Shown here one piece after another: positions 43,521-64,000 of a DNA stretch of 64,000 nt. Origin of the DNA: Tetrahymena thermophila SB210 (taxonomy: Eukaryota > Ciliophora > Oligohymenophorea > Hymenostomatida > Tetrahymenidae); assembly GCF_000189635.1 (NCBI RefSeq), contig NW_002476452.1:372001-436000 (forward strand), in the 5' to 3' direction. The first letter of the stretch is position 1. Each line of letters opens with the position of its first letter. Both the position numbers and the translations under genes were made by a program. The notes beneath the pieces are model-generated. The model was given only the letters and a program-made list of their open reading frames with translations, was not told where the DNA came from and ran no database searches.

Positions 43521-44510
43521 ACTTTTGATAAAAAATTATTTTATTTATTTTATGTTATTTTTCATAAAAAATGTTAATGTTTAAGTAAGGTTCATTATTT
43601 TATTTTTTAGTTAGGTGAATCATTTTTTATAACTTTATGATCATAATTCTATTTAATAAAAAATGAAACTCTTTCTACCAATGATTAATTAATCAGAAAA
43701 ATCTTGGATCAAATGATATAGATAAATTTACCGTTGATTAATATTTAGAAGTTATATTTTTTTATAGTTTAATCCAGATTAAAAATAGATAAATGTTTAG
43801 ATTTATTTTCAAATGGTTCTTTTCTATTTTAATTATTTGTAAATTTAATTTAAAACAATTAAATATTTAAAATTTTTATTTATCAATTTAAAAAGATTAT
43901 TTATTTTTCTAAACTATTTAAATGGGTTTAATTTTTTCACATTTAATTTAATCAATTTTTTTATTTTAAATTAAATTTGAGAAATTATTTTAAATCTAAA
44001 AATAAATTTTTAAGATTGAAAAATTAATTTATTCAAAATATTTTAAATGATAAAATTGAAATTCTAAATTTAAATTAATTCATAATTTTTTTTATAAAAA
44101 AAATCTATCTTCTAAAATAAAATAGTAAAAATATTTATTTTAAACTGGATAAAATTATATTATTTTTTCCAAATTTTACACTTCTTGTTTTAAATAAATA
44201 TAAAAAGCTGATTTTGTAAAAGTTTTTGCTTATTATTTTATTAAATAAAATTCATTTTAAAACTTGTCATTTAAATTATGTTTAAATTAGAAAGATTAAT
44301 TTGCTAGAATAGTCTTACTTTACTAGTATTTATAGTTATTATCTGTTTGAAATACAGTACTTATTTTTTAGAAAGCATAAATTAAATTAAAATAATTTCT
44401 TTATTAACTAGAATTTCTAATCAATATTATAAATTTTTGTAGAAATTAATAAATGATTAAATTTTATAGATAATAAAATGATAAATTAAAAATATTTAAG
44501 TGCATTTAAT
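43521..44510. other. Extremely AT-rich spacer
   Basis: Long runs of A and T only; nothing recognised. Confidence 0.5.
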
Positions 44511-44863
44511 ATGTTTAACTATTAATTTGAGCAAAAAATAGTATGTAAGTTAAATAAAAATATTTAACCTTAGATTTTGGTAAAACAAGATTACTTAGCT
44601 TAAACCAAAAACTTATTTTAGAATAATTTTGAAGGGAATAAAAAATATTAATTTTTATTAATAATCCTACATATGAAGAGTTTGAGAAATATAGCTCAAA
44701 GCCAAATGCCACAAACAATGATATTAATTAGGATGATAGCATTAATTTGTAAATTTTGCGAGTCAGTGACTGTATAAAATCGATAAGGATTTATGAATTT
44801 TTTTGTATTTCAATTTACTCAAGTTAAAATAAAAGAAAGATAGAAAAGAATCATAAAAACTGA
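44511..44863 (+). pseudogene. Frameshifted small gene remnant
   Basis: ATG 44511 begins MFNYQFEQKIVCKLNKNIQP and continues with YLAQTKNLFQNNFEGNKKY. Near 44640-44665 the coding signal moves to another frame, NPTYEEFEKYSSKPNATNND then DDSINLQILRVSDCIKS, ending at TGA 44861-44863. Each half looks like real protein, so a one-base loss seems to have broken a small gene. No intron with proper phase explains the shift. Function unknown. Confidence 0.35.
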
Positions 44864-45217
44864 GTTGCGGTCTCTGTGTGTGTGTGCTTGATTAATCAAT
44901 TAGATAATTAAATAAAAGAACATTAATAATCAGTATCATCAGTGCATAACATTAATATTATTAAGTAAAAGTGAAAGTTAAACAAAATAGGTTTATTTTA
45001 ATATTTTAAGTAATTAATATTAGGATAGTAATTTAGTTAGTTACCTTTAGTTTAAGTAAATACATATTGGCTTCCAAGTAAAATTACTCATAGGCGCAGC
45101 AATTCGCATAGCAAAATCAATTATTTAAATTAAGATTTGTTTGATTTAGCTTTTTGAGCTTGATTTGTTGCAATTACAACCATTCAATCAAATAAATATT
45201 GCCTTAGTTTATAGTTT
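44864..45217. other. Spacer upstream of the RINGv gene
   Basis: Contains a short (TG)n run at ~44876-44886 and the likely promoter region of the next gene; no gene seen. Confidence 0.5.
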
Positions 45218-47452
45218 ATGGGAAATTGCTAATAGATTTAAAATCTTCAAGAAAATGAATTAAAAACTACACAAAAAGAGACAGGTATCTATATTGCAGT
45301 CAAAATATGGTCGAAAAAAAGTAATGAGCTCTTCAATTATGAAGCTAGGACCTATAAGGAATTAAAATACGACTTGTTAAAGTAAGAAACTCTTCCTAAG
45401 TAGCTAAGACATTTATTTTGGAGAAATCAAGATGATGGATTAATGCTATTTAATCCTAATAAGAATATTTCTGTAAGTAACGATAAGCAAGAGAGATCTT
45501 TTCTAAGTAAATGGGTAAATCTAAGCTCTCTTGACCGTTAAAATGGCATTGAAATTTAAGTGAATGATGTTTATAAATTTGGCAATACGCTTTTGAAGGT
45601 GAAAGATATTTATTTTTCTAATCACCAGCAGAAGTTTAGGAATTCTTTTGATGCAGGAAGCAACTACAATTGTGGATGTAATTCCAAGAAAAATACTTTA
45701 ATCATAGGAAATTGCTCTGATTAATAGCAGCAATATTCAAAATTATTGTCTGATAAATCATGCTAAAAATAATTAAGCTAAATAAGTAATAATAATAATG
45801 GAAAATGCCAGCGCTGTTAGAACGGCTGTTAGGGAAATAATTGGACAGTTATGCAAAAGGCAACGACTATGATGCTTAGCTCCAAGTATTAGGGAACAGA
45901 AGAATGCAACGATGATTTGGATTAAAGCTATTTTGATAATAACTGTGAAAATTAGGTAGCAGTAAACACTGAAAAATAAGCTTGCAACTAAAATTGTTGC
46001 AATAACGCAAAAAGATCTAAAAAATCTCTCTGTCATAACCAAGGAGAGCCTTTGAGATAGTGTAAAATATGTCTTTAAACAGAAGATGAAGAAAAATTAA
46101 ATGATTCTTTTTCATAATCTCTTTAAAAACAAAATGATGAGTTAGAGAATAAAGATCATAGTTTTACTTTGCACTAGTCTAATATCAAAGAACATCAAAA
46201 TTGCCACAACCATTCATTTTATAGTACTTAATATACTTTCAATAATAATCCTCTTATAAGTATTTGTGGTTGCTAAGGATCTATGAAATATGTTCACTTA
46301 AAATGTCTTTAGACTTGGGTAAAGAGCAAATAGTTGCTGAATGATTCCTTTAGCAGTAAATACTGCGAGTATTATTCTCACAAGGCAATGATATGTGAGC
46401 TTTGTAAGAAGAATTATCCATTGAAAATAAATATAAATGGCAAAAAAGTCTTCCTTCTTCAAATGGAAGAATAGAACGAGGAAGAAGGCACTAAGATTAT
46501 ATATCCCGCCAGCACTGGATCTCGCTAAGATTCAAATGTAAACTAAGCTGTCATTTCTATGCGTTAAAATAGTCAAGAGAATATCTTGCAAATTGATAAT
46601 GAAGACGATGATAACATTGCTGATTAAGATGAATCACCATTTGAAGGACATGACAACAACGAAAATGAAAGCATTTAAAGCAGCGAGGATGAAGGAGATG
46701 ATTAAAATAGCCAAAACTCTGAAGGAGATGAAGAAGAGTAAAATGAAGACCAAGAAGAAGAGGAATAAAAAACAGACTGGGAAAATTTAACAAATCAAAA
46801 GAAAAGAGAGAAGAAAAAGAAAACGAAAAGATTTGATAACTATGTCATATTCGAAATTTCTAATTCTTAAAATACTTCATTAAATGGTCTGATAATACTT
46901 AATTTATAAAAAACCTACGAAAATAAAGCAAATCTAAACAAAACATACAGCTCTGATCAAAATAAAAATAGCTCAGTATTAAAAACTATTTTCACTCTTG
47001 GAAGATAAAATTCATGTGATATTAAAATTAATGATATAACAGTAAGCCGCTTTCATGCAGAACTAAAAGTTAACTATGAAAAAGGTAGAATATTTTTGAA
47101 AGACACAAACTCTAAATTTGGAACTTTAATTAAGCTTAGAAAGGAGCTTGTAATTAATAAAAAATTGGATGGAGTCTAAATATAAATAAATAATGTGTGC
47201 TTAGAATTTTGTATTGGATAAGATCCATAGTAGGAATTTTATAATTAACAATATACAAATAAACAAGGGAAGGAAAAAGACTCCAGAGCGACAATATGCT
47301 AGTTCTCTACTTGCTTCAAAACCAATAATACCAGCAAACCTGACTACGAAATCAATATTCAAGATGCTAGTTTTAAATTTAGGGATTAAGAATACAGTCC
47401 AATCGAGTAGCTACATGATTTAAATCCCTTAGAGTTATCATATTAAAATTGA
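45218..47452 (+). CDS. RINGv (RING-CH) and FHA domain protein with MGNC start, probable E3 ligase, 744 aa
   Basis: A single exon runs from ATG 45218 to TGA 47450-47452. The N-terminus MGNCQQ fits myristoylation and palmitoylation. An early region (~80-130) could be a further small domain, followed by a Cys-rich stretch. The RINGv finger has C282-x2-C285 (CKICL), a long insert, C350-x-C352 (ICGCQGSMKYVHLKCLQTWV) with H360 and C363, then C393-x2-C396 (CELCKK); this is the C4HC3 order of MARCH-type E3 ligases. An acidic Glu/Asp-rich linker follows (~480-550). Residues ~590-672 are an FHA domain with GRQNSCDIKI, TVSRFHAEL and TNSKFGT, the phosphothreonine-binding signature (G-R, S-R-x-H, G-T). 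There are no transmembrane helices, unlike MARCH proteins, so lipid may tether it. It is probably a phospho-directed E3. Confidence 0.9.
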
Positions 47453-48330
47453 CCAGTACTAACTTATTAACACACTTCTATTAATCAACAGTCCAATTAA
47501 TCAATCAATTAATAACTAATCATCAATCAACCAATCAGTCTTTCTATCTGTGATCTTAGCCAGTATTTTCAAATTAATCTCTATTTATTCTACCATGAAT
47601 AATAAATAAAAGCTTCCAGTAAAAATAATCAAGAAAATATAAAAAAAATACAATAAAAGAAGATATCAATATATAATTCTACTTTTAATTAATTTCAAAA
47701 TGTAAAATAAACCATTAATAAAGAAATATTTTAATAATAAAAAAAATGATCTAATTTCTATTTATCCACATTTAATTCAAAGTATAAACAAGTATAATTT
47801 TTTTTTTCTAAGCCAAAAATATTTACATAAATCTAATAATATTAAAATTAATAATATGATATCAAAAATTACTAAGTCTTTATAAATTAATACTGATATT
47901 TAAATTTAATTTAAGTGAATCCTATCTATTTACAACTATTCAGTTTATGTATAAATTACAATTTATTCAATTTAATGATTTTTAAGTTTATTTTTTCATG
48001 AAATATAAAATTAATAACTAAAATTATATTTTACAATTTATTTATTCTTGATTTTATTAATATCTTAAAAATAATCTTCAATCATAAACAAAAAAATATT
48101 ATTATTCAAATTTATAAGAATTTTGAAAAAAAAATTTATTTATTATTCAATCTATTATAGATTTTTAAATTGTTTATTAAATTAAACTTATTTCAACTAA
48201 TTAATAGAATGAGTTTTAAGCTTATGAAAAGGTATTTTGATTTTATAAGGAGAACTTTATTGAAATTAGTAAATTATAATACATGCTACTCTATTGCCTC
48301 AGATATAATATAAAAAAGTAGTTAGTTCCC
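47453..48330. other. AT-rich spacer with CAAT-type short repeats
   Basis: 3' flank of the RINGv gene with CAATCAAT runs; no gene recognised. Confidence 0.5.
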
Positions 48331-49218
48331 AATTTAGTAAGTATTTTTTAATATCCAAAAAATTTAATTTTTAGACCTTAAACCTGAGGGGGTTTATTGA
48401 AGGGAATATAGTAATAGAGTATTCATATTTTTATAAATAAAAGACTTTTCAAAAAATACTTTATTTTTTGAAACAAAGTGAAATATTCTAATTAATAAAA
48501 AGAAAGGTTTTTGATAGATATTCTAAAATTGATCTATTTTTTAAAATTTGAATAGTGCCTTACTTATCAAGATTAGAGATTAAGAAAATCTGTTATATTG
48601 TAATTTTAAGACCAATCACTAAAGAAATAAAAATATTTTTAGTAACCCTTTGTAGTAAGCTATTTCATTTATTTAGTTTAAAGCTTAATATTATTTAATT
48701 AATTTATACTAATAATAAAATGAATTATTATGAATTAAATTTTAAATGAATGAATTGTAATTAGTTTCTTTAAAAATTCTTCAACAAAGAAACATAGAGA
48801 TAACATTTATATTTTATAAACATTTGAATACTAAGTATTAATATTTAATATTTTCCCCATCCATCCATAAATTATTATCTACAAATTTATAATTGTTTTT
48901 AAACATTTAAAATATATTACTCTGGTTCAAATTTTTATTCTTGACCTATACTACATCTCAAACAGGAATTAGGATTTTAATTATGAATGAATGTGCACAC
49001 TTTTTCTATGAGAAGGACAAAAGTTTTATTATTATAGTTACTAGAATTCCAATAGTTATAGTAATCTAAAGAAAATTTGCCATTTTCATCTATATTACAT
49101 TGGTAAGGTAGTGGTGAAATAAACTTCAGGTCTTACCTTTGGAAAATATTTAATAAATTAGAATTCATTCAGCTTTGTAAATTCCATTTTTGTGAATTGT
49201 ATTTTTTTCACCCTCTTT
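48331..49218. repeat. Segmental duplication, copy A (partner 51670-53020)
   Basis: Two blocks are shared with 51670-53020 in the same order. 48349-48640 matches 51683-52010, including ATCCAAAAAATTTAATTTT, a near-palindromic AAACC...GGGGGTTTA and GATCTATTTT. 48650-49216 matches 52475-53015, which contains the E2-like gene on the minus strand. About 450 bp present in copy B is absent here. Substitutions and indels are spread throughout. Confidence 0.8.
48851..49216 (-). pseudogene. Decayed E2 ubiquitin-conjugating enzyme copy, catalytic Cys lost
   Basis: This minus-strand stretch is homologous to the C-terminal two thirds of the E2-like gene at 52662-53147. It keeps NIDENGK, then reads FSLDYYNYWNSSNYNNK where the intact copy has ICLDYYNDW, so the catalytic Cys codon TGT has become TCT (Ser). 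Indels (for example an extra ATTC and a missing five bases near 49125-49170) shift the frame, and the N-terminal part is absent beyond 49216. It is therefore a dead copy generated by the local segmental duplication. Confidence 0.75.
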
Positions 49219-49369
49219 TCATTAAAAATTAATTTAAAACAATTATATAAAATAATATTTTGTATTTTTATTATACTTTAATAGACTTATTTTAATAATG
49301 CAATAATACAGAATAACTCCATCACCATTTTTATATTCAATTACTTATATCAAATTACTCATTTAAAAT

Positions 49370-50760
49370 TATCTTTTCTATTTATTCCATAAATGAGATA
49401 TTTGATATTTTAGAGCAGTTTCACAGTCTTGGTCATCTTAAAAGTCTGGGAATTTTGCTTTTTATAGAGCTTTTCAAATCTATTGAGGAATCAGTTTATT
49501 TACATAAAGCATATATTACTTAGAGCTCTGTTGAAATAGGAAAAGTGAAGTCTGAGTTTGTTTTTTTAAGAAATGGTTTAGATTTAAAAAAATTGAAAAT
49601 TAGATTTCTTAATTAAAGAAAAAACAGAAGAAAAAAAAGTAAAAGTAGTATCACTTAAAAAAAGAGTGGGACTATCTTAAAATAATAACCATATTAAAAA
49701 GAACTAAAAAAAACCAAGACCAATAAGAGTTTAAATAATAAAAATTGAGAGACAACCATATTTGGGATGGTTATTTAAGGAGAGAAGTAATCCTTTCAAG
49801 AAGGTACGAGCTAAATTATACATAAATTATATTCAAAAATAATACATTGATATGCAGAGAGTTGATTAGTATTAAAAATCAATATTATAGATTGATTAAG
49901 AGCTCACTTTATCGCATTCACCTCAAGAATGCATTAAAAAGTTCTAAGATTTAGGATTGCTTAATCATGTACCTTTCAGTGAAAATTAAGTATCTAGTTC
50001 GAAAATAAATGAGTATAATTAACAATAAAAATCGAGTTTATGGCTGAAAGTATGTTGCTTAAAGTGTCAAAATATGAAAAGTATTAGATATGACTCTATA
50101 TTTTGATAAAAAATTCCTCATTGCTTGCTTTCTTCGTTTATTTTATTCTTTCTCCAAAAATCTCTCAACAACTTATGCATAGAATATGGCATAATGTGAT
50201 ATCAGTACTGTTAAAGATTTTTGAATCAGCACAATTTTAAAAAATATTATTTTAATATAACTCTTTAAAAAATTCACTAATTATAAAGAGTAATCACTTT
50301 AAAAAATAAAAGCTAATACAAATACGAAAAATTCTTATGTAGGATTTTTTAAAAATTTGAAAATAAGGTAATCTATCATAGAAATACGTGTAAATTTGAA
50401 AAAATTGGTTACTATTAAACTGGTTGAATTGAGAATGTTAGAAATTGTTATAAAATATTATGATCTGGTGTTTATTTCTTTATCCTGAGCGCTTCCTGGA
50501 AGACTAAGCTTCAAATTATTTCTAAAATGGTACACAATTTTTAATTTTTACTCCAGTTAGTATCTAATTTACCTTTAAGATTAGATTTAAGATTTCCATG
50601 CTTCTGAAATATTTTTTAAATGTTATACAGGGTATTTATATGAGGATATTAATCAAGATCTACTTTCTATAAAGATTTAAATATCTCCTTTACTGATTAG
50701 TCTATTTCAAGATATCCTTATATCATTATTCTTAACTCTTTTGGGATTTAAATTTTAATA
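49370..50760 (+). pseudogene. Decayed gene of unknown function in several frames
   Basis: Clear protein-like blocks follow one another on the plus strand in changing frames. 49395-49575 reads EIFDILEQFHSLGHLKSLGI. 49604-50106 reads RQPYLGWLFKERSNPFKK, then DQELTLSHSPQECIKKFQ and KFQDLGLLNHVPFSENQ. 50090-50224 reads YFDKKFLIACFLRLF and STTYAQNMAQCDISTVKDF. 50460-50590 reads PERFLEDQASNYFQNGTQ, and 50591-50745 reads HASEIFFKCYTGYLYEDIN. A 28-nt GT...AG gap (49576-49603) would join the first two in phase, but no consistent gene can be assembled. I read it as a broken gene inserted between the two duplicated E2 segments. No family recognised. Confidence 0.4.
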
Positions 50761-51669
50761 ATTTCTTATTTAAATTGCTTATTTAAAGAAAATTTTATCT
50801 GCTAATTATTTAATTAAGTAGTCGTTAATATTTGAATTTAAAAATTAATATTATTTAAGCTGTAAATATTTATTATATAAATACATTTTATTTAACATAT
50901 ATCTCAGCCAAAAAAGTGTATTCAGCTTAATTCTTTTTTACATAAAGTATTAATAAAGTGAAATAAGATCAACAATAATTGATTGTTATAAAACAAATAA
51001 GACAATAAGAATAATTAAGTAAAGCATAAATATATATTTATTGTAAGAATTTTAAAGTGAGCTGAAAAAAGCTTAAGCAATTAAATAGTAGAGTAAGACT
51101 CAATAATTATTTTGGATATTAATTACGATTTGATTTATCAACTATTACATAAGCAAGTAGAAAAAAAATAAGAGGAAGAAATAAATTAATAAAAACAACA
51201 AAAATAAAAAAAATATTCATCTATTTAAGAAATTCAATCTTCATATATATATTTAAGAATAATTATTAATTTAATATTTAAATAAATAATAATATATATT
51301 TTTAAATTAAATTTTTAATTTTTGAATGAATCTGAAAATTATTTTTATATGTAATAATTAAACAAGCGTTGTTTGAGTAAACTTTTAAATACTTTCAAAA
51401 TTAATCTAAAATTAAAAAATAATATTTTCAAAATCAAGTTCGTAAAATTAAAAAGTAGAACTATTTTTTCTGCATTTTAACATAGATTATGTATTAAAAT
51501 TATTCATTAATTGCTTTCTAGATTCATTTTATTTTATTTAGTAAAATGTAGGATGCTTAACTAAGAATATCAAAAAATCAATAAAAATGATTTTAACATT
51601 TATTTTGAGTAAAAATATAATTAAATTGAAATAAAATATTTTTTATAATTATTTAATTAAGAAAGTTTT
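50761..51669. other. AT-rich spacer with a possible Gln/Lys-rich relic
   Basis: A short plus-strand stretch near 51110-51240 reads HKQVEKKQEEEINQQ but has no start or clear end. Otherwise nothing recognised. Confidence 0.35.
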
Positions 51670-53020
51670 ATAATTTAAACCCATATATTATCCAAAAAAT
51701 TTAATTTTCGGACTTTAAACCCTAGGGGGTTTATCTTAGAGAATAGAGTAATAAATAGAGTATTTTTATTTTTATGAATAAAACACTTTTAATTTAAAAT
51801 AATAAAAAACACTTTTATTTTTGAAGAATAGTGAAATATTCTAATTAAATTAAAAAAAAAGAAAGATTTTTGATTAGTATTCTAAAATTGATCTATTTTA
51901 TATAATCTTAAATAGTATCTTACTTATCAATATTAGAGTTTAAGAAAATCCTTCCTATTATAGAAGAAAAGCTTAAAAATTCTAAGATCAGTCACTAAAG
52001 AAACAAACAAGTTTTTAACAAATATTTAGTAGATTCTTAAAATGATTAATAGTTTTAATTGTTTTTAAAACTAAAGCTATTTTAAAACTTATGCACTTAA
52101 AATAAAATATTAAAGTATTTTAAAATAATTTTCAAAATGAATATAATAATTTTTAGAATCATTTTAAACTAAAAAATTTACAATTCATTTGTATATTTAT
52201 ATTACTTAAACGGTTACAAAATTTTTTTTATTTTATATTAGACAGAAATTTCTCATTATCGCAATTAAATTTATCAAAATATTTTATTTATTTAAATGAT
52301 TAAAGAAAAATAGTAAAACATACCAATCGATAAAATCTAAAGTATTATGAAATTTTATATAAAATAATATAAACTGTTTTTATTCAAATTAATTTATATT
52401 TATAAAATAAATTAATTTCTTTTCACATAAAATATGGTAATCATAAATTATTATTCTTATTGCAAAATAAATAAAAATTATTTCACTTATTTAGTATGAA
52501 GTTTAATATTATTTAATTAATTTGTATTAAAAATAAAATGAATTATTATGAACTAAAATTTAAATGGGTTAGTTGTAATAAATTTCTTTAAAAATTCTTC
52601 AGCATAAAGATGGCATATATAATATATTTATTTGAATACTAAATATTAATATTTAATATTTTCATCCATCTAAAAATGCTTACCTACAAACTAATGCTTA
52701 CTTTTATACATTTTAAATATATTACTATTTATTACTTTATTCTTCTTTACCTATACTATATCTCAAACAACTTTCATTGTTTTAATTATGAATGAGTGTG
52801 CACAAATTTTCTATGAGAATGACAAAAGATTTTTTATTATACGTAGAAGAATCCCAATCATTATAGTAATCTAAACAAATTTTACCATTTTCATCTATAT
52901 TACTATGGTAAGGTAATGGCGAAATAAACTTTCCTTCAGGTCTAACCTCTGGAAAATCTTTAGTAAATTAGAATTCAGCTTTGTAAATTCCATTTTAGTG
53001 AATTGTATTACTTTCACCAT
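51670..53020. repeat. Segmental duplication, copy B (carries the intact E2-like gene)
   Basis: Partner of 48331-49218. The left block begins near 51683 with ATCCAAAAAATTTAATTTT and contains the palindrome AAACCCTAGGGGGTTT at ~51715-51731. The right block (52475-53015) spans the E2-like coding sequence. Copy B carries an extra AT-rich segment at ~52020-52470. Confidence 0.8.
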
Positions 53021-53147
53021 AAATGAGGACATTAAGCTTTGTTGGATCTTTTTTATTTTCCTCAACACTGAAAGAGCTGCCTTCTATTTCACACTAATGA
53101 GTAATGCACTTAAGAAATTCTTGTTAAACAATATTTTAAACTTCCAT
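52662..53147 (-). CDS. E2 ubiquitin-conjugating enzyme-like (UBC fold), 161 aa
   Basis: ATG 53145-53147 to TGA 52662-52664 is a single exon. The UBC core is recognisable: an N-terminal helix, a beta strand with YGESNTIHQNGIYKAEFQF, the FPEVRPEGKFISP turn (equivalent of the YPxxPP loop), then YHSNIDENGKICLDYY with the catalytic Cys at residue 91. The usual HPN motif is HSN (81-83), an unusual substitution. The helix after the active site (SFVILIENLCTLIHNQ) and the C-terminal helices are present. It accepts ubiquitin or a ubiquitin-like protein from an E1 as a thioester. The N-terminus is short, so an upstream exon is possible. It lies beside deubiquitinase genes, a predicted ubiquitin-like protein and a RINGv protein. 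Confidence 0.8.
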
Positions 53148-54180
53148 TTGTTTTTCTTAAATTTTTTATTGATTAATTTTTTGATAATTATTCTTAATTT
53201 TTTTTAAAGATGTATTTGAAATTTGAAGAATTCTTAAAAGCAATATATTAAAAGTTTTGGTAGTTTCTAATAATTTTGAAATACAATTTATTTTTATTAT
53301 TACTAAATACTTAGTATACTTGGTGATGGTAATGCCATAATAATTAAATAGAATAATTAAAAATAAAATAATTTTAATATTTTTTGAGTATTACTGAATT
53401 TATTTACAAAAAAATCTAAATATTTTAGGATATATTTACAGAAGAATTGTATATATTTTTAAATAAAAATAAATGTTTTCTTTTAGTAATGCAATAATAT
53501 AGAATATCTTTATCAAAATATTTTGGCGACTCAATAAATTAAACACTTTGTCAAATTTTATACATTTAAAAAGAAAATATTTATTTTAATTATTTTATTT
53601 ATTTGTAATTAAAATAGAATAAGTTTTGTAATAGAAGATTAAATTTAGATAATAAAAGACTTTTATTAATTTTTTGTTTAATTAATTATGTATTTTTCTT
53701 AACTGCGTCATTAAAATACCCTAAATTAAATGAATGCTGTGCAAACTTCTCTTTTTTTCTACTTATCTCTAACATTTTAAATATTCTTATCTTTAAATTA
53801 TAAAAATATTCTAAGTAATTACATTTATACATTCTCAGGGCTCTATAATTTACACATTTAAGCTAATTTAACAGAATTTATAACTTATTTGTTAACTTTT
53901 TGTAAGTTATTTTTATAACCCAAAAATATTTGTATTCAAGAAAATTTAAATCTATATAGATAGTATTTAATTTACTGCTAAAAATTCAATTGATCAACTA
54001 TAAATTTTGGGCTTTTATCTTTTATTTATTGTATCTTTCTTTTTAAGTAATATTCTAACAAATCATTTATGAAATCATTAATAGTCTTAAGTCTTTTTTT
54101 TGATTGAAATAACAAAAATTATAAAGCTTTTTAAGATATAATCATAGAGTGTTATACTAAATCAGAAAGCATAAATCAAA
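53148..54180. other. AT-rich spacer, possible further E2 relic
   Basis: Around 53700-53760 the minus strand has TTTGCACAGCATTCATTTAA, resembling the TTGTGCACACTCATTCATAA of the E2 gene, which hints at a third, badly decayed copy. Otherwise no gene was recognised. Confidence 0.3.
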
Positions 54181-55500
54181 ATGGTTCTATCTATTTATAA
54201 TTTTATAAGAAATTTTTTAAAACCATAACATTTTTATATAACTTTTGCTTTTTTATCATTGATCTATTTTTAGAGAAGATAAAAGAAAAAAAAGTAGATT
54301 TTATGGAAGGGCTTTATAAATTTAGGAAATACTTGCTACATAAATGCAGCTCTCTAGCTGTTGAGATAAATCAATATTATTAACTCTAATTTTTTAGATT
54401 AGTAATAATCATGGTTAGCAAATTAGCTTAAATAGCTTTTTAAAATGATTGATGAAAGTGAGTAAGTAGAAGAATAGCTTAAAAAACTTCACTCAATATC
54501 TTAATAACATTAGATTCATGAACTTAAAGGAGGTGATAGCTATTAAATATTATTTACATTTTTAAGGACCATTAATAGTGATATTAATAAAAGATGCTTT
54601 GCCTTAGGATAAAAAAATGTGCTAAATAATTTTGAAAGGCATATATCGATTGTGTCATTAGATGGTTATTAATGTTAATAATGCCATTAATTTTGATAAA
54701 AAGAAAAGAATTAAATAGAAATAATTGAAGAAAAAAATTTCAGCATTGATATTCATAACTTTAATGATCTTCATAAATTATAATCTATCTAATAAGAGAG
54801 TGAAATGATAAATTTTTGTTAAAATTGCAACTCTTAAACAAAATTTAAGACAAACAAAGTCATTAAAAATCTCCCGCAGTTCATAGTTGTTAAATTTTCA
54901 GAATAAAATTTACAAAATCTAAGCCAATCTTAATGTAAAAAAGAGATATTCCTTCAAGGGAGTGCTCACCCTTATAAAATTATAGGTTACTGTAGTTATA
55001 CAGGCAGCCATTATACATATACTGCTAACTATGATGATGTTTGGATACAATTTAATGACAGGAGAGTTTAAATTGAGTAAAAAGGATTTCAAAGAATATA
55101 CTATTTACTATTAATGAGGGTTTTAAATGAACTAATGAATGAATGGTTCAACATAATAAATAGATTAAATAGTAGCAATAAAAAAGACAAAATAAATAAA
55201 TAAATAATTTTTTATAATAACAAATTTTAATTTGAACTTAATTATTGTATGAATTTTATGTATTAATCAGATACATTCTCATAAATATAAAAATAATTAG
55301 AATATACATAAATACCAACTTTAATTAATTTGATCTTTGATTTATAAATACATTATTTGAATTTGTTATTTTATTTTTAATAATCTTAATTTGGTAAAAA
55401 TAAAATACTTTTATCACTTTATTACTTTTAATTTTACTTATAAATAATAATAATAAGTCTGTTTTCTATAATTATTTTAAATACAATTAAAAAACTTTGA
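54181..55500 (+). pseudogene. USP-type deubiquitinase with N-terminal membrane anchor and in-frame TGA
   Basis: ATG 54181 opens a frame with an N-terminal hydrophobic helix (HFYITFAFLSLIYF) and a basic stop-transfer patch (QRRQKKKK), followed by the USP Cys box GFINLGNTCYINAALQ (Cys52). This layout recalls membrane-anchored USP30. A CxxC pair (YQCQQCHQF) is followed at 54694-54696 by TGA (codon 172). The same frame continues with a second CxxC (NFCQNCNSQ) and the His box GYCSYTGSHYTYTANYDD (His277), then WIQFND. After ~55110 a small deletion relative to the 57527 paralog removes the normal stop, and the frame runs on in low-complexity sequence to TGA 55498-55500. It is probably a pseudogene; readthrough of the TGA is the alternative. 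Confidence 0.6.
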
Positions 55501-55585
55501 ATACTTACTTTCTTATAAAAAATAGATTCATTATTATTGATTCAAAACATAAATTATCAAAAAAAATTAAAACTAAAACAAATAA

Positions 55586-57019
55586 ATGTAATAATTACTG
55601 GCATGTTGTTGCCCCTGGTTTTATAAAACTAAAAACGAAGAGTAAAATTTAGATTAAAATAATAATTAAAATAACGAATTTAATGATTAAAGGAATATAA
55701 AAACTAAAAAAGAAAATAATCAAGCAATATAAGATAATTCAGATTTAAAAAGGAGCTAATATAATTAGAAAAATAATATTTACCCCTAAATGTCAAATAA
55801 TAATTAATAATTTAATAATAGGATTGTTTATAAATAAGAACTTAAAAATACTAACTATAATAATAATAACAAAGATTTAAAAGATTTAGATAATAAACCA
55901 AATGGAATGGAAGATAAATAAAAAAGTTTTAATAAAAAGGAAAATAATTCATAAAATAGTAAAAACTAAAAAAATCAAAAATTTGTAAAAGAGAATGACA
56001 AACAAATATAAGAAAGATATAATTACTCAAATTAAGATAAAAATAATAATCAAAATGAAAACAGAATATAATAAATAAATTCTTACTCCTAAAAGAAACA
56101 AATTAATAAGAAGCTTTAAATTTCAGATTAGGATAGATTTAATATCTAAGAATAGGATTTAAATCGCAATAAATAAGATTAAAAATTTTAAGACAAAAAT
56201 AGAGAAATTTAAACTTATTATGGCATATAAAATCTAGGGAACACCTGCTATATCAATTCTGCCCTCCAAATGCTGAGATAGATTTATGAAGAAAATGAGT
56301 AGTTTTTGGAGTAAAGATCTTATTTTGCCTAAAATTTAAAAGAATTCTTTTAAGGTCTTAGTAAAGGTTATGTTAACAGATAGTTATTAAATGACTTTAT
56401 CAGTATTTCAAATTAAAAGTAAACTCATGAGTAAAAAGGAGGAGATTCTTATTTGACTGCCTTTAATTATCTCTCTAAAATTATAAATGAGACGAATGAA
56501 TACAAATAAAATAATATTAATGAGTATAAACTAACACAATTTTAACAAATATTTACAATAATATTTTAAGATGGCTTATATTGTAAAAAATGTAAAAAAT
56601 ATTTGATGGATTCTACAGATATTCCATATATGAATGAACCTGATTCAAGCTTAGATTTGCAAAATTTTCCTAAATATAGAATAGAGTCAGTTTATAAGAG
56701 AATTTATACACAACAATCTTACTGTAATCAATGCAATTAAAAATCTAAATTGAAAACTTTAAGAAGTATTGCTTTCTTTCCTTAATTTCTGATAGTAAAG
56801 CTGCCTAAATCATCATTCAAGCTTGGGAAAAAGTAATAAAGAATTAAATTTGATAAAATAAGTTATTAATTAATAGGGTATTGTAATTACGATGGTGTTC
56901 ATTATACTTATACAGCTAAATAAAATAATATTTGGATAACTTATAATGATTCAATAACTTATTAAGTATATAAATTAAATTTAAGGTACTCAATATATCA
57001 ACTTTACAAAAAAATGTGA
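55586..57019 (+). CDS. USP-type deubiquitinase, 477 aa
   Basis: A single exon runs from ATG 55586 to TGA 57017-57019. The N-terminus MQQLLACCCPWF has a Cys cluster suited to palmitoylation. Residues ~15-210 are Asn/Gln/Lys-rich and disordered. The catalytic domain starts at ~214 with GIQNLGNTCYINSALQ (catalytic Cys221). A QKGGDSYLTAF block follows, then a pair of CxxC zinc-binding motifs (LYCKKCKKY and SYCNQCNQ) and the His box GYCNYDGVHYTYTAK (His439) with WITYND. All catalytic landmarks of the C19 (USP) peptidase family are present, so it should cleave ubiquitin or a ubiquitin-like protein at the Gly-Gly bond. It is the second of three tandem paralogs. Confidence 0.9.
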
Positions 57020-57526
57020 TTCTCCCTCATTATATCTTATTGAAATTAAGACAAGATTTGATAAAAAATTACTCTATATACATTTACATAATGTAATATT
57101 TATTTGAAATAGATAACTTTTGAGTAGTATTGAAATAATTTCTAAAAAATATCTATATTAATAAATTAGAATTGAATGTGTTTATTTATAAATTCTTTAA
57201 TTTTTTTCAAATGAGATTATTGAATATTTTTTTCTTTTTGAATAATTAATTAATCCAATACTTTTTCTAAAACTGATCTTGATAAATACTTTTTTGATAA
57301 AAGCAACCATTATTAATTGATCAATTTAGTTAATATTCTAAAACAAAAATAAAAGTATTTTATATTTTGACATTGTCTATAACTAAAAAATAAATATTTT
57401 TATTAAAAGTGTTTTATTTTACAAATATTGTTGATAACCTATTTGAAATTACTTATTTTTAAATTGCTCCCTTTAAGATATTTGATAAATATTTTATGTA
57501 AAAAATACTCAAAAATTAAACAAAGA
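57020..57526. other. AT-rich spacer between tandem USP genes
   Basis: Short promoter/terminator spacer; no further gene seen. Confidence 0.6.
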
Positions 57527-58555
57527 ATGAGTAAAAATAAAAATGAATACTAAAAATAAAATTAAAAGAATTCTAGCAAAAATAAAAAAACCTCCAATGG
57601 TTTTAAAAATCAACCTAAACACAAATTAATAGAAAATCAATCGCCGAATAAGATAACAGATAAAGAAATAGAGGGGGAATATGAAGAAGAAAGCAAAAAA
57701 GAATACAACAAAGTGACTGTAGGATTCCAAAATTTAGGTAATACATGCTACTTAAATACTGCTTTGCAAACGATAAGACAAATCAGTTGTATTAGTAGTG
57801 ACTCTCTTCCTGATACTATATTTTGTGAAACTCTCAAAATTTTATTTTAAAGCACCAATTGTAATCACAAAACAAAATATCTAAACTTTGTATTTGATAT
57901 AATGTAAAATTACTAAATACATCTAGAAAATGGAGGAGATGCATATTAGTGCCTTATAAACTTGCTTAGAAAAATCTATTCAGAAATAACTAATAAAAAA
58001 GGCATAGAATAGTTTTAAAAAAGCTTCTAAGCTATTTTTGAAGATGGAGTTTTCTGTAATAATTGTAAAAAGTATGAGGAATCTAAGGAAGTTTAATATT
58101 GCCATATTTAAGAAGAAATTATTGGGATAGAAGATTTTTCATTAAACTCAGCGATTATTGAACCTCAATCTCTTTATTAGGATAGTGAATGTAAATACAA
58201 TTGCTCGACTTGTAATCAACCTACTCTTAAACCTTTTAGAGCGATTATATCTGCTCCTAAATTCTTGATTTTTAAAGTAATAAAATAAGAAATAAGTAAT
58301 CAGCGAAATAATAAAAAAAAAGCTCAGAAATAAACAAATTATTCACAATTAAATACAAAAATAGAAGATTAATCTTAATCCTTTTGTTATAATTTAATTG
58401 GTTGTAGTGAGTTATCTAATAGTCACTATACTTACACTGCAAAATATGATGATTAATGGTATCGCTTTAATGATTCATATGGGTAGAAAATAGAAAATTT
58501 TAATATTAACAATAATAATAATATTAATTATTTACTATATATTAATGATAAATGA
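57527..58555 (+). CDS. USP-type deubiquitinase, compact, 342 aa
   Basis: ATG 57527 to TGA 58553-58555, one exon. A short Lys/Asn-rich N-terminus (~65 residues) precedes GFQNLGNTCYLNTALQ (catalytic Cys74). ENGGDAYQCL corresponds to the KGGDSYL block of the sister gene. Two CxxC pairs (VFCNNCKKY and YNCSTCNQ) and the His box GCSELSNSHYTYTAKYDDQW (His300) with YRFNDS follow. The family role is removal or processing of ubiquitin-like modifiers. It is the smallest of the four paralogs and lies 1.3 kb upstream of the predicted ubiquitin-like gene. No membrane anchor is visible. Confidence 0.9.
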
Positions 58556-59289
58556 GGAAATTAAGAGATTTTTATTTTTGTAAATTTTCATGAACAACTA
58601 CATTGTATTTTTTATTTTCATTTTCCATTTTAAAATTAAATAAACAAATAAATTAGATGATTAAATTAAAAATAATCAATTTGTTATTGAATAAGATATC
58701 ATTTTAAATTAAAAAAGAATTTTTTTTGATAGATTTTTAGTTTTTAGAAAATTAGAAATTAATTTAAGATAATTTTTTTGAAAAATAATTATGATTGTGC
58801 TTGATGTAAAAAGAAGTTACTCAACTTTTGATTTTGTGTATATTAACTTTTTTGTTTAAAATAATCCTTTACTTCTAATTACCAAAACTCATGAAAATAT
58901 TTTATAAATTTATTTGTTTTATTAATATGAATACTTTTTAAAAATCAAACTCATTTTAAAATAAAAGCTACTGTTTGCCAATCATGAATGAATAAAAAAT
59001 TTATTATAGATATAAGCAAATTGACATTTCCCTATTTTCTTAAATATTCTTAAGAAAAAAAGAAGAATTTAGTTTGCTTTATAAATTAATTTTGAATCTT
59101 GAAATTTTTAAAAGCTTCACTTAAAATAAGTAAATTTTAATATTATTATTTGATTTCAACTTAAATAAAATAAATTTAAAATGTAAAATTATAATTAAAA
59201 AAACTATTATTAAAATGAGTGAGCTGATTTAAAATCATAAATTTTATTTAAAAATAAATAAAAAAAGGCTTAAATGCCTAAATAAATTT
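58556..59289. other. AT-rich spacer
   Basis: No gene recognised; 3' flank of the USP gene and of the minus-strand remnant that follows. Confidence 0.5.
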
Positions 59290-59554
59290 AATAATTTTTT
59301 AGTCATTATATTAATCTAGTTAATAGTTTATCCATGAAGTGCTATATTTTCTAAATGTCTTTCTCTTCTACTACAGATTGATCATGTCATTCTTAACTAG
59401 ATTCTTTACTACCTCTGAGACATTGTCATTAGCTTCTCTTATAGCCGGTTTCATATGATTAATATGTAATAAATAGTTCCTTTTCAGGCATGGTACCTTT
59501 AAACTATCTAGAAAAAAATTTGCAAATCTATTAGCTCAAAGTTATATTAGCCAT
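59290..59554 (-). pseudogene. Small gene remnant with two frameshifts
   Basis: ATG 59552-59554 begins MANITLSQQICKFFSRQFKG then TMPEKEL. The coding signal continues in a second frame (LLHINHMKPAIREANDNVSE, VVKNLVKNDMI) and ends in a third (SVVEEKDIQKIQHFMDKLLT then RLIQ, TGA near 59297-59299). Restoring one base at each of two sites would give a protein of about 96 residues. The N-terminus is Arg/Lys- and Ser-containing without acidic residues, so an organelle targeting peptide is possible. No family recognised. Confidence 0.4.
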
Positions 59555-59844
59555 TTTATTTATGTTTTTATTTTGTTTAATTAATATATTTTATTAAACA
59601 TTACATTTTTTACCCGCCTTTTAATAAGAATAAAACCTATTAGAATATTAACAAATTAATTAATAACATTTTTTTATTTTAATTAAATCCTAAATAACTA
59701 ACCCCTAAGGTAAATTGCAATATTTTTTGATTAAAATCAGTACTATAAATAAAAACGAGCAAATCCAATAATAAAGATAATTATTAAAAAAAATTAAAAA
59801 ATCCAAATAATCACTCAAATATTAACTAAAATAAATCAAATAAA

Positions 59845-60105
59845 ATGAGCATAAAGGTTATGTTTATATAATTAGAAGGCTAACACTAAGGCTAAAAGGC
59901 TATTAAAGACTTTCCTTCCTCTACAACTTTAAAATAGGCTGCAATCGCTTGTAACATACCTATTAAAGATATGACCTTTAAATGTAATCAGGAAGCTTTA
60001 GATAACCTTGATAAGACTTTATAAGATATCAAAGATATTTATAATACAAATTCTCCAGTTCTTATTGTGAGAGTCTTTAAAAAAGCAGTTGGAGGCTTAG
60101 AGTGA
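59845..60105 (+). CDS. Predicted ubiquitin-fold protein ending GGLE, 86 aa
   Basis: ATG 59845 to TGA 60103-60105 in one exon; seven in-frame TAA/TAG codons are read as Gln. The order of elements fits the beta-grasp: strand 1 SIKVMFIQLEG, turn, strand 2 KAIKDFPSS, helix TTLKQAAIACN, then TFKCNQEALDN, DKTLQDIKDIY (compare the TLxDYNI stretch of ubiquitin) and the last strand SPVLIVRVFKKAVGG. The protein ends Gly83-Gly84-Leu85-Glu86, so removing two residues would expose a C-terminal Gly-Gly as in ubiquitin-like precursors. Its length also fits (76 in ubiquitin). It is flanked by USP genes and near an E2-like gene. Sequence identity to ubiquitin is too low to prove homology by eye. Confidence 0.7.
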
Positions 60106-60938
60106 ACTAGTCATAATCCTATTCAATATTATAAACAAAAATAAAAATAATTAATATACTAGATTATTCACTGTGTTTTTTTATTTTTTACTGAATAATA
60201 ATTTTTGTTATTTTGCTATCCCATTCGAATATTATCTTATTTAATTTTAAAGATTTATCATGGTCAATTAAAATATTTTCCTTTTATAATGATTAAAAAT
60301 AATGCAAATTTATTTTTATAGTCAAAACAAATTAACAAAATATACTATTTTAATGTATTTGTACTAAATAAATTAAAGAGTTTTATACTCAATTTATAAA
60401 GATAATACTATTTCAATTTAAAATAATATAAATTAATGCTCTTATTAGTAATCCATATCTTCATCTAAGAAGCATTGAAAAAAATAATTAAAAATAATTT
60501 GATTCGCGATAAAAGATAGCTACTTTACTCATTTCAAACAATTTTGTGAATGATTAAACAATTATTCAATTGATAAAATTAATAAGCTTTTTAGAATTAT
60601 TTCGTAGAGAATAGATGAGCAATCTAAAAAAATAAATCTAAAAATGTATAATTAAAAACAGATATTGCTAGGAAATACATAAAATGATTAATTACTATTA
60701 TTTTCCCCTTTAAGCTATTCATAATATTTCTGATTTAATAAAAACTTTATTTTGTGAAGGAAAAGGAAGTATTTTTTGTTTATATTCTAATTAATTATTA
60801 AAATAAAACACTTTTATTTTTTAAAAATTAATTATAAAACTAAAACTCTTTTATCCCTGAAATAATATGAATATTCTAATTAATAGATTTATATTATGTT
60901 TAATAATAATAATAATTACTTAAGTCATAACTTCATTA
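60106..60938. other. AT-rich spacer
   Basis: 3' flank of the ubiquitin-like gene; nothing else recognised. Confidence 0.5.
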
Positions 60939-60946
60939 TTAATCAC

Positions 60947-61057
60947 TAGGGATTGACCATATGACCATTTTTATCATTCGGCCATATAATATACCGAATT
61001 TTTTTAAAAATTATTCAGCCGTATACCGTATCATGAAATTTATACGGTCGATCCCTA
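60947..61057. mobile_element. 111-bp hAT-type MITE with 8-bp target-site duplication
   Basis: The element begins TAGGGATTGACCATATGA and ends TTATACGGTCGATCCCTA, whose reverse complement TAGGGATCGACCGTATAA matches the start with a few changes, giving terminal inverted repeats of ~18 bp. It is flanked on both sides by TTAATCAC (60939-60946 and 61058-61065), a perfect 8-bp duplication, the hallmark of hAT transposition. The interior is partly self-complementary (CGGCCATATAATATACCG, CAGCCGTATACCGTA) and GC-richer than its surroundings. It is non-autonomous, with no coding capacity. Confidence 0.9.
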
Positions 61058-61302
61058 TTAATCACTAATTAAAATTGAAATTTTAACTTGCTTTAATGAT
61101 GAATTCTTAGGTTTTTTAAATTCTATAAATATAATAATATTTATTATCTAAAAAATAATATTATTTTCAATAGTAACATAAAATTTAAATATTCAAATTA
61201 TTATAAAAAAGACTATCTTAAAAAAAATATATAAATTTATAAAATTTAAAACAAAAAAATATTTTAAAGTATTCTTTGACTTTATTAGTTATTTAGTTTA
61301 TC

Positions 61303-63663
61303 TCATATTCTTTTCAATAAAAAGTATATTGCTTTAGAACAATCTGGTCTTACTTCGCTAGAATTTTAATCATTAAATTCAATCCACTTATTATTGTATT
61401 TTGCAGTATAAGTATAGTAATGACCATAATAACTACAGAATCCAACTATTTCATATTTTTAAGTTGTTTTTTAGTTTACTAAAAATTCGAATTATTTATC
61501 TAAGATATATAGACATTATTCTTTTGGAATAAAAGATAGTAATCTAATTAGCATAAACTTAGGTGCATATTTGTATTTTCTGATTGACTGCAATTAATCT
61601 CTACATATAGGGCAAATAAGATCATCACTGTTTATCTGTTTAAACAAATCTAAATCACTATTATCTTAAAAGGCATCATCTAATTTACTGCATTCGTATC
61701 CAAATTCTTAATAATCTAAACAGGTTATAAATTAACTAGTATTTGGAATTTTTTACCTTTCACATTTACCACACTTTAATTTGTCTTTATAATTACGCGA
61801 AAACAAATCATCAAATTATTATTTTTAATTATCAGGTAGAGATTTTTTTATTTCATAAAGAAAATCATAAATACACATATAGGTATCTCCACTATAAGTA
61901 TGCTCCTGATTTTATTTAGATTTTTCAGCTATTTTTTAAATCCAAAATTAAATTTTTTTAGTATTTCTTTCTTCCATGCATTGAAATAGTTGTAAAAAAT
62001 CTTTAGAAAAGCCAGGGTTTTCAAATATTTTTTAATCAAAATAGTAAACTTACCTTAGCGTTTAAATTGTAGAATTAATGTAGCATTTTAAACCAATATT
62101 TGGTAGACCTATTTTTATTTTATCAAGATATTAGCTCTTATTTAAATATATTGATTCAAAATGATATTGATTGTTTCTTTCAACCATTCTTCTATCTCTT
62201 GAACTCAAATGATTTTATTGAGAAGTTGAATTTTAGGTCTAACTTTCATTATCAAGTTATTGTTGTTTTTAATTATCCTAATTAGATTTTTATTAATTTT
62301 AAAGGAGATGGTTTTTTATAGAAATCTCTAAGTGCTCAGATATATAATTTACTTAATTTTACTATAAATTATTTTAAGTTTCAGCCAAACTTTTTTAAGT
62401 ATTTTAAATTTTGTTTTAGCTTTCACAATTTGCATTATTTTTTTCCAATTTCTAATTATTTTCTTAAATTTTAAGTTAATCATTATTTTGTATTTTATTA
62501 GTATTTGAAGAGCTAATAATTGTTTGTTAATAACCTTTTATTAAACTGTCTTCTCGAGCTCTTAATTTTACATTTTAAGATAATATTTAATACTTCTTTA
62601 AATTACTTAATTCAGATTTCTCATAACTGGTTAACTCAAATTAATTGTAAGAAGTGATCAAACTTTTAGAAGAACTTTATGAATCAGAATCTCTTGTTTA
62701 ATCTTTATTGTTAATATTATTTTAAGCAGAATTTGAGTTAAAAGATGTTGAATCTAAATTTTTGCTTATACTTTGATTATTATTTTAAATTTATTAACTT
62801 TTTTAAATGAAAATCTAATTTATTTTCTCTTCATTTAGATAGTTTTAAAAAGAATAATTTAATTTTTAATTATTAAACTGATTGAAGCCAATTTCCTATA
62901 CAATTTTATTAGCATTTTGTAAGCTATTAGATCTATATTTGATAAATTGATTCAGTGCCTATTATTAAGCTATCTATGAATTAGGGTCGAATTTAGATGC
63001 ATTTTACAATTATTCTGAATTTTAGTTAATGCTTTTTTGGTATTATGGTTATGGAGAGTTTAAATTTCTATTAGCAATTGAAGAACTAGTAATTGTTCTT
63101 AGATTATAAATATTTTGAGTTGCCACATTCTTTTAGTTAGTTTAGCAGTTAGTTTGATTTTCATTCTGCAAATGTTAATTTATTTAATTATTTTAATATT
63201 ATTATTAAGATTTTGCTGAATTCTATTATTATTAGATATATTAACTATTCTCAAGATTTTTTTTATTATACTCTAAAGTTAAAAAAGAAGGTGAAGTTCT
63301 TATCATATATTTTGTTTATTTATTAGAATCTAATTTAAAGTTCCTCTAATAATTATTTGATAAGTTAAAATTATTTTCATAGCTATTTTTATAATTCGGA
63401 GTATATTGAAGGATTTACCCTTTATTAGCAATTTTACAATTATCTTGCATTTAATATTTATAATACAACTCATTTTTTTAATCTTAATAATTAGGAGTTC
63501 TTTTTTATCTATTATTATGTGAGATAACGTAATTATTTGTTCTATATTAAAAACTAGGTTATCTATCACTAAGATAAGTATCTGTGACTTTGTTTTATGG
63601 TTTTTCAGAGTTTTTAATTGCATATTCTTACAAATTTTAAGTAGGCTTTTAAAATTAACTCAT
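61303..63663 (-). CDS. USP-type deubiquitinase with long Gln/Asn-rich N-terminus and altered Cys box, 786 aa
   Basis: ATG 63661-63663 to TGA 61303-61305 is a single long frame with dozens of TAA/TAG Gln codons. Residues 1-~510 are Gln/Asn/Ser-rich and probably disordered or prion-like. The USP domain begins at ~518 with GLPNIGLKCYINSTIQ. The catalytic Cys (527) and following Tyr are kept, but the usual N-T before it is L-K, and the changed Asn may alter the oxyanion hole. HTYSGDTYMCI matches the GGD block, two CxxC pairs follow (KCGKCERQ and LICPICRDQ), and the His box GFCSYYGHYYTYTAKYNN (His748) with WIEFND is intact. It is a fourth paralog on the opposite strand. The 3' end lies ~245 bp from the MITE. 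Confidence 0.85.
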
Positions 63664-64000
63664 ATAATTACTGCTTTATCTCATTTCTTATTTTATTTAA
63701 GGTTAATTTAACTTAAAAATATTAACTTTATTGTAGTAATAACTCATAATTTTTTATTATCCTTTATTTTTATTAAATTAATATTTATTTATAAAAGATA
63801 CTTTTTCTCATAAATATATAAACATAGAAGTTATTAAGAAAGAATTAAAAGTTTACAAAATTTCACAAACCTAATTCTATAGAGTAATATTTTAAAAATA
63901 TTTATATCAAAATAAAAACTTGTTTATGTGTAATTTTTAATTTAAAATACCTAAATTTCTTAATATGATAAACAAACATACTTAAAAAATTTAGGATTTT
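63664..64000. other. AT-rich upstream flank to window end
   Basis: Probable promoter region of the minus-strand USP gene; nothing else recognised. Confidence 0.5.

Follow-up and report, generated by a model that had tools for sequence, protein, structure and literature searches.

Does a short open reading frame that ends in Gly-Gly plus two further residues, and that lies among genes for USP proteases and E2 enzymes, encode a ubiquitin-like modifier (Ubl), and are enzymes dedicated to that modifier encoded alongside it? This question is raised by an 86-codon frame in a stretch of 64,000 nucleotides (the window, meaning here the whole stretch of DNA that was analysed). The window lies on a chromosome of 556,716 bp (C99), one of the 445 contigs of a 101 Mb genome; both ends of C99 carry CCCCAA/GGGGTT telomere repeats, as in a complete macronuclear-type chromosome. 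Together with genetic code 6 and the BUBL-like genes described below, these telomeres point to Tetrahymena or a near relative as the host. The evidence set out below makes it probable that the product of the frame is the modifier in a ubiquitin-like conjugation pathway of its own.

An open reading frame with a Gly-Gly tail shared by two copies

Translation under table 6, in which TAA and TAG are read as Gln and TGA as stop, gives a product that starts MSIKVMFIQLEG and ends VLIVRVFKKAVGGLE; under table 11 the same frame holds 6 internal TAA/TAG codons. A search of the 101 Mb genome with this product at E<=10 returned two matches, namely the query itself and a second copy (copy B) on the same chromosome.

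59845..60105, + strand: Ubl copy A, candidate ubiquitin-like modifier, 86 aa, ends VGG-LE (code 6, ATG to TGA stop)
C99:454157-454414: Ubl copy B, 22 kb downstream of copy A, aligned over 86/86 residues

Direct alignment shows the two copies to be 86% identical, and no difference between them is found in the last 15 residues (72-86), GGLE included. The identities printed by the genome search (81% for copy B and 93% for the match of copy A to itself) come out low because TAA and TAG are counted there as mismatches. An 86-aa product with Gly-Gly followed by LE had been read from the letters of the window alone, and this description is borne out, as the frame is open under table 6 and GGLE closes both copies. 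Each copy has the C-terminal Gly-Gly of conjugated (type I) Ubls, here placed ahead of the short LE extension.

Codon changes between the copies amount to 7.5 synonymous on 54 sites vs 13.5 nonsynonymous on 204, a dN/dS of 0.45 (Fisher p = 0.095) that is not significant alone; this lean to synonymous sites is only suggestive of constraint. Within the window, 6/474 stop-to-stop frames with a length of 60-130 aa reach the codon score of copy A, whose frame is counted in the six. A Gly-Gly within the last 10 residues occurs in just 2/455 ATG-to-TGA frames of 60-150 aa across 134 kb of C99, and these are the two Ubl copies. Judged by its second copy, its codon score and the rarity of its Gly-Gly, the frame is more than a chance ORF.

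Sequence comparisons with ubiquitin-like families

The sequence-only reading had put forward an HMM search against Ubl families as a check on its proposal, and this search lent it no support: among 24736 Pfam models, 0 families matched the product at E<=10 (the HMMER filters drop most matches above ~0.1). Because no Pfam model matches, we do not file the Ubl under any of the named families with which it was compared (ubiquitin, SUMO, Urm1, UFM1, ATG8 and ATG12), in keeping with the earlier judgement that it is not ubiquitin, SUMO, NEDD8, URM1 or ATG12. NCBIfam likewise returned no family, and there were no relatives of the Ubl in viral contigs. A PDB sequence search gave no credible relative; JAC1 (E 0.21) and eS17 (E 1.1) were dismissed as chance matches.

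More sensitive comparisons gave scores at or near background. An hhalign comparison of both copies with a profile built on 27 of the genome's ubiquitin-like sequences gave a local score of 10.3 (mean of 200 shuffles 10.2), which is no signal, and a 'glob' score of 4.2 vs 3.2 (sd 2.2) in shuffles. Global alignment to ubiquitin and to a NEDD8-like protein gave z of 1.0-2.3 over 8 comparisons, with 27-155 of 1000 shuffles reaching the score, and alignment to the ubiquitin profile gave weak and non-significant z of 1.3 and 2.0 (30/300 and 10/300 shuffles). A crude propensity scan placed strands at residues 3-8, 45-47 and 72-77 and a helix at 30-35; at 16-21 it gave helix in place of the expected second strand. 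By eye, elements of the Ubl and of ubiquitin can be laid out collinearly (VMFIQLEG / FVKTLTG, PSSTTLK / ASDTIEN, NIPxxxMTF / GIPPDQQRLIF and, further on, KTLQDI / RTLSDY and VLIVRVFKKAVGG / LHLVLRLRGG). We treat this overlay of order and spacing as a lead and not as evidence of homology. The result would fit a rapidly diverged Ubl, represented by two sequences only, and would equally fit a protein that is not a Ubl. What stands of the proposal of a new Ubl with a processable tail is the tail itself, with GG-LE identical in the copies and a cognate-type E1 found (see below); for the proposed beta-grasp, the sequence statistics are at or near background.

These comparisons bear on a different explanation, in which the frame encodes a real small protein, ubiquitin-like or of another fold, that is not conjugated and works instead on the neighbouring USP or E1 enzymes, as their adaptor or inhibitor, its Gly-Gly being incidental. 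The lack of Pfam, PDB or hhalign support for a Ubl fold is in its favour, and the two residues after the Gly-Gly mean that the encoded form is not conjugation-ready. However, short extensions after Gly-Gly are normal in Ubl precursors, and one NEDD8-like gene of the same genome has one, ending KGGF. The confinement of a near-terminal Gly-Gly to the two Ubl copies among 455 small frames, the identity of their last 15 residues and the head-to-head position of the E1 also argue against an unconjugated protein, and we regard this explanation as unlikely.

A divergently transcribed UBA1-type E1 gene beside the candidate Ubl

If the product is a conjugated Ubl, a cognate E1 is expected, and a candidate was met head to head with the Ubl in copy B. 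The intact E1 gene lies outside the window and was thus out of reach of the sequence-only reading, so that finding it tests the Ubl proposal independently.

C99:453857-450997, - strand: E1, copy B, 909 aa, 3 exons, outside the window
59343..59554, - strand: E1 stub, copy A, 212 bp, matches about codons 1-75, frame damaged; the rest is absent relative to copy B
59555..59844, no strand: intergenic stretch from the E1 start (stub) to the Ubl start, from the alignment of the copies

The start of the E1 lies 299 bp from that of Ubl copy B, and the two are transcribed in opposite directions. Its introns, of 50 and 81 bp, are bounded by GT...AG, with splice sites picked to preserve frame and homology. 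The intergenic stretch is kept in both copies (299 bp in copy B) and includes a near-identical block of ~75 bp on the Ubl side; it is probably a shared divergent promoter.

Pfam ThiF matches the E1 in 2 stretches (E 1.5e-49). In the PDB, the E1 is most similar to a UBA1 (4ii2, which we take to be that of S. pombe; E 5.7e-48), followed by other UBA1s, UBA6 and UBA7; the match to SUMO E1 subunit 2 is much weaker (E 2.9e-21). Alignment to 4ii2 covers residues 7-161, the first adenylation-type half, and 221-532, the second half with the catalytic Cys; a third stretch, 646-717, aligns weakly (i-Evalue 0.35). The nucleotide-binding loop LVGCGAVGCE pairs with LVGAGAIGCE of UBA1, DDDLIEGSNIPRQ with DMDSIEKSNLNRQ and AVDSSSAR with ALDNVEAR; SNIPRQ falls on the SNLNRQ of UBA1, and the Cys in ASCTAK is aligned with the one in PICTLK. 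By its two ThiF-like halves, GxGxxG, SNxxRQ and aligned catalytic Cys, the cluster E1 is classed as UBA1-type. The first two aligned stretches are separated by 59 residues in the cluster E1 and by 141 in the UBA1 chain. With ~80 residues fewer here, the E1 is short of a domain as large as FCCH; the short stretch is presumably where UBA1 has its FCCH domain. The C-terminal ~190 residues, after the last (weak) stretch, where a UBA1-type E1 would have its ubiquitin-fold domain, contain no Pfam domain at E<=0.1.

A search of the genome with the E1 gave 9 matches, 3 of them its own exons and 6 at 24-36% identity. SNLNRQFLFR motifs are present at further E1 loci on C177, C114, C156, C214 and C332, and UBA1-type E1 genes thus appear, from these motifs, to be expanded in this genome. 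A further ThiF pair was noted on C134.

No relatives of the E1 were found in viral contigs or in contigs of prokaryote genomes, and phage records gave only 3 partial matches, covering 15-18% of the E1, two of which are annotated MoeB. A viral or bacterial origin of the cluster was dropped: the introns, the UBA1-type E1 and the USPs point to a eukaryotic source, and scans of viral contigs with the Ubl, E1 and E2, and of prokaryote contigs and phage records with the E1, gave no viral or prokaryotic relative beyond these three. The collections scanned are not ciliate ones, so these results bear on origin and not on conservation.

A UBA1-type E1 is also what would be seen if the E1, E2 and USPs had diverged within the ubiquitin pathway but still handled ordinary ubiquitin, with the small frame an unrelated neighbour. 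The Gln of UBA1 that contacts Arg72 of ubiquitin is aligned with a Gln in the cluster E1, and ubiquitin is abundant in this genome (82 PF00240 matches). Yet the Ubl has been duplicated along with its block and is intact in both copies while its neighbours decay, its tail is Gly-Gly, and a single intergenic region separates its start from that of the E1. We consider this alternative quite improbable, and retain the reading of the small frame as the modifier.

E2 and USP genes of the cluster

The E2 is present and intact in both copies, and part of a third lies elsewhere in the window.

52662..53147, - strand: E2 copy A, 161 aa, UBC fold, Pfam UQ_con E 2.2e-20
C99:438378-438857, - strand: E2 copy B, 160 aa
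48860..49138 (C99:420860-421138), - strand: partial third E2 (query residues 69-161, printed identity 61%)

UQ_con matches E2 copy A at 73.1 bits vs a Pfam cut-off of 27. The nearest solved structures are UBE2S and UBE2A, and the Cys of the E2 aligns with that of UBE2S; this catalytic-type Cys is retained in both copies (NGKICLD in copy A and NGIICLD in copy B). The HPN tripeptide was not found in either, being H-S-N in copy A and H-C-N in copy B, with the Asn kept and the Pro absent. A dN/dS of 0.33 (p = 0.0012) shows the E2 to be under purifying selection between the copies. The genome holds 8 matches to the E2, of which 3 are those on C99 listed above and 5 lie elsewhere at 19-33% identity; no relatives were found in viral contigs.

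The window also contains four USP genes of copy A.

54181..55125, + strand: USP1 copy A, one in-frame TGA; its homologue in copy B is intact and 316 aa long
55586..57019, + strand: USP2 copy A, 477 aa, Cys box GNTCYINSALQ, His box VHYTYTAK, Pfam UCH E 6.8e-11
57527..58555, + strand: USP3 copy A, 342 aa, Cys box GNTCYLNTALQ, His box SHYTYTAK, Pfam UCH E 2.1e-13 (375-aa frame)
61303..63747, - strand: USP6 copy A, 814 aa, UCH near the C-terminus, Pfam UCH E 2.3e-11

Pfam UCH is above its cut-off in USP1 of copy B as well (USP1B; copies are lettered in this way from here on), and the first 322 residues of USP4B match UCH at 2.5e-07, the last 434 having no match. Together with UQ_con, these matches above the Pfam cut-offs confirm the set of deubiquitinase and E2 genes that had been described around the Ubl. 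By sequence, a USP fold with the UCH domain and the Cys and His boxes is found in USP2A, USP3A, USP1B and the first part of USP4B. The exceptions are USP5B, which has no Pfam match and a Ser in its Cys box, and USP6A, which matches UCH but in the alignment of the copies has a Tyr in place of the His found in the His box of USP6B. USP1A is probably broken because of its in-frame TGA. As for USP2B and USP3B, the pieces that match follow directly on one another but change frame, leaving no space for an intron. The dN/dS between the USP6 copies is 0.72 (p = 0.033).

When USP1B was used as a query against the genome, all 11 matches, among the best 12 candidates scored, fell within C99:426181-456189, so this branch of USPs looks private to the cluster as far as this one protein query goes. 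Other, more distant USP genes surely lie elsewhere in the genome.

The cluster has been duplicated in tandem

Comparison by blastn of window 44001-64000 with C99:436001-476000 reveals a tandem duplication, in which collinear blocks of 79-89% identity place window 50783-64000 against C99:436583-458924. The block that carries the Ubl equates window 59343-60492 with C99:453628-454814. Window 58834-59343, 0.5 kb in copy A, corresponds to 9.5 kb in copy B (C99:444143-453628); the extra stretch carries most of the E1 gene and two large USP-like genes.

C99:445035-447305: large USP-like gene of copy B
C99:448245-450536: second large USP-like gene of copy B

Gene losses differ between the units, with most of the E1 gone and an in-frame stop in USP1 in copy A, and frameshifted USP2 and USP3 in copy B. 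The E1, USP1, USP2 and USP3 are each open in one of the two units, and copies A and B jointly retain one complete gene set. The genes that are broken or catalytically doubtful are USP1A, USP2B, USP3B, USP5B and USP6A; assembly errors may be the source of broken frames.

Such losses would be expected of a formerly active cluster that is now losing its genes and is no longer functional, and the E1 stub, the TGA in USP1A, the frameshifted USP2B and USP3B, the Cys box of USP5B with its Ser and the dN/dS of USP6 can all be read in this way. Against decay stand the open copy of each of E1, USP1, USP2 and USP3 in one unit, the dN/dS of the E2 and the E1 itself, whose three exons are open over 909 codons. 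We hold a decaying locus to be very improbable, and continue with the reading of a functional conjugation cluster.

Further features were noted in and around the duplicated region. A ~109-bp stretch at window 60948-61056 has inverted ends (AGGGATTGACC..TAT ... ATACGGTCGATCCCT) and is bounded by a 10-bp direct repeat, ATTAATCACT, at 60938-60947 and 61057-61066; it is missing from copy B, where the flanking blastn blocks (ending 60942 and starting 61066) are 4 bp apart, and it looks like a MITE-type insertion postdating the duplication. Near the cluster, window 45218-47452 (+) encodes a 744-aa protein with RING-variant (RINGv) and FHA domains, a possible E3, which we did not assign to the pathway because it lies outside the duplicated block. 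At the other end of the window, two related large GTPase-like proteins (95-1795 and 4012-7071, -) have P-loops GQRNKGKT and GQTNKGKT; Pfam MMR_HSR1 is above cut-off only in the first, and by eye the pair resembles guanylate-binding proteins. Two tandem related proteins (11003-12598 and 14248-15759, -) each have an internal signal-peptide-like stretch, after which they are similar (SCKLLP / SCRLLP ... LELGHAYQNNYN / FELGHAYQNNYN).

A proposed Ubl pathway and its relation to known systems

Genes for a candidate Ubl, an E1, an E2 and USPs are present and linked, and searches of this genome with the Ubl, E1, E2 and USP1B gave no close relatives outside the locus. The cluster is most likely a dedicated Ubl cascade working like those of ISG15, FAT10 or NEDD8, a reading supported by linkage, catalytic motifs and the Gly-Gly tail. 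In such a cascade the GG-LE precursor would be trimmed to GG, probably by a cluster USP. The E1 encoded head to head with Ubl copy B would adenylate the GG end and load the Ubl onto its catalytic Cys, and the charge would then move to the cluster's own E2, in which the corresponding Cys is seen. The Ubl might then be attached to lysines of its targets, either directly or with the help of an E3, and the several USP paralogues could take it off again. We infer from the sequences every biochemical step, the pairing among the cluster's proteins and any E3.

The ISG15 / UBA7 / UBE2L6 / USP18 and FAT10 / UBA6 pathways are vertebrate ones. The cluster is like them in having a putative dedicated Ubl, a single-chain E1 of UBA1 type and an E2 that would both serve it, and USP-type proteases that may remove it; the C-terminal extension after the Gly-Gly is shared with ISG15. 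Unlike ISG15 and FAT10, the cluster Ubl is a single and not a tandem domain with no detectable sequence relation to either, its E1 is without the FCCH-size region, and the genes are clustered and locally duplicated in a ciliate. The putative short-extension precursor ending GG-x and the apparently dedicated E1 and E2 are features shared with NEDD8 and SUMO. The E1s of NEDD8 and SUMO are two-chain, whereas that of the cluster is one chain, to which SUMO E1 subunit 2 is a far poorer match than UBA1; SUMO proteases are of Ulp/SENP type, in contrast to the USPs found here.

In the BUBL genes of ciliates, a BIL (intein-like) domain comes after the ubiquitin-like domains, and the products are processed to a GG end. 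The cluster Ubl is likewise a candidate ciliate Ubl gene whose product would be processed to a GG end; it differs in that BUBL domains are recognisable by PF00240 while it has no Pfam match, and in that it ends two residues after the Gly-Gly with no BIL domain. Elsewhere in the genome, ubiquitin-like domains at C91:842980 and C91:852872 are followed by GGCFVSNTQITMA..., and we take these to be BUBL-like genes with a BIL domain. At C22:657780, C172:86804 and C50:93853 and 90472, ubiquitin-like domains continue past the Gly-Gly as a fusion family, whose common sequence after it is FVxLENEKSKK-like, then FSxxAP. A stretch of ~20 kb at C169:503875-523260 is packed with dozens of ubiquitin units.

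Bacterial Bil operons hold Ubl, E1, E2 and deconjugase genes together, and the proteases of prokaryotic Ubl operons are of JAB/Rpn11 type. The layout of the cluster is like that of prokaryotic Ubl operons in the adjacency of Ubl, E1, E2 and deconjugase genes, as reported for Caldiarchaeum (PMC5654768). It is unlike them in that its E1 is UBA1-type with two adenylation-type halves, it has introns, it lies on a eukaryotic macronuclear chromosome and its proteases are USPs.

Eukaryotic Ubl pathways with an E1 of their own are few, these E1s being UBA1, UBA6, UBA7, those of SUMO and NEDD8, UBA4, UBA5 and ATG7. No ciliate Ubl-E1-E2-USP cluster was described in the open-licence PMC literature, among the matches listed (titles and abstract starts). 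Whether the cluster represents an additional eukaryotic Ubl pathway, lineage-specific to this ciliate group and operon-like, with an unrecognisable modifier, a compact FCCH-less single-chain E1, an altered-HPN E2 and specific USPs, is in our estimate an evenly balanced matter. If it does, Ubl pathways can arise and persist in eukaryotes as a linked set of modifier, E1, E2 and proteases, and the compact E1 and H-S/C-N E2 would serve to test which elements of E1 and E2 enzymes are indispensable. If a genetically tractable Tetrahymena carries the cluster, the pathway would be directly testable.
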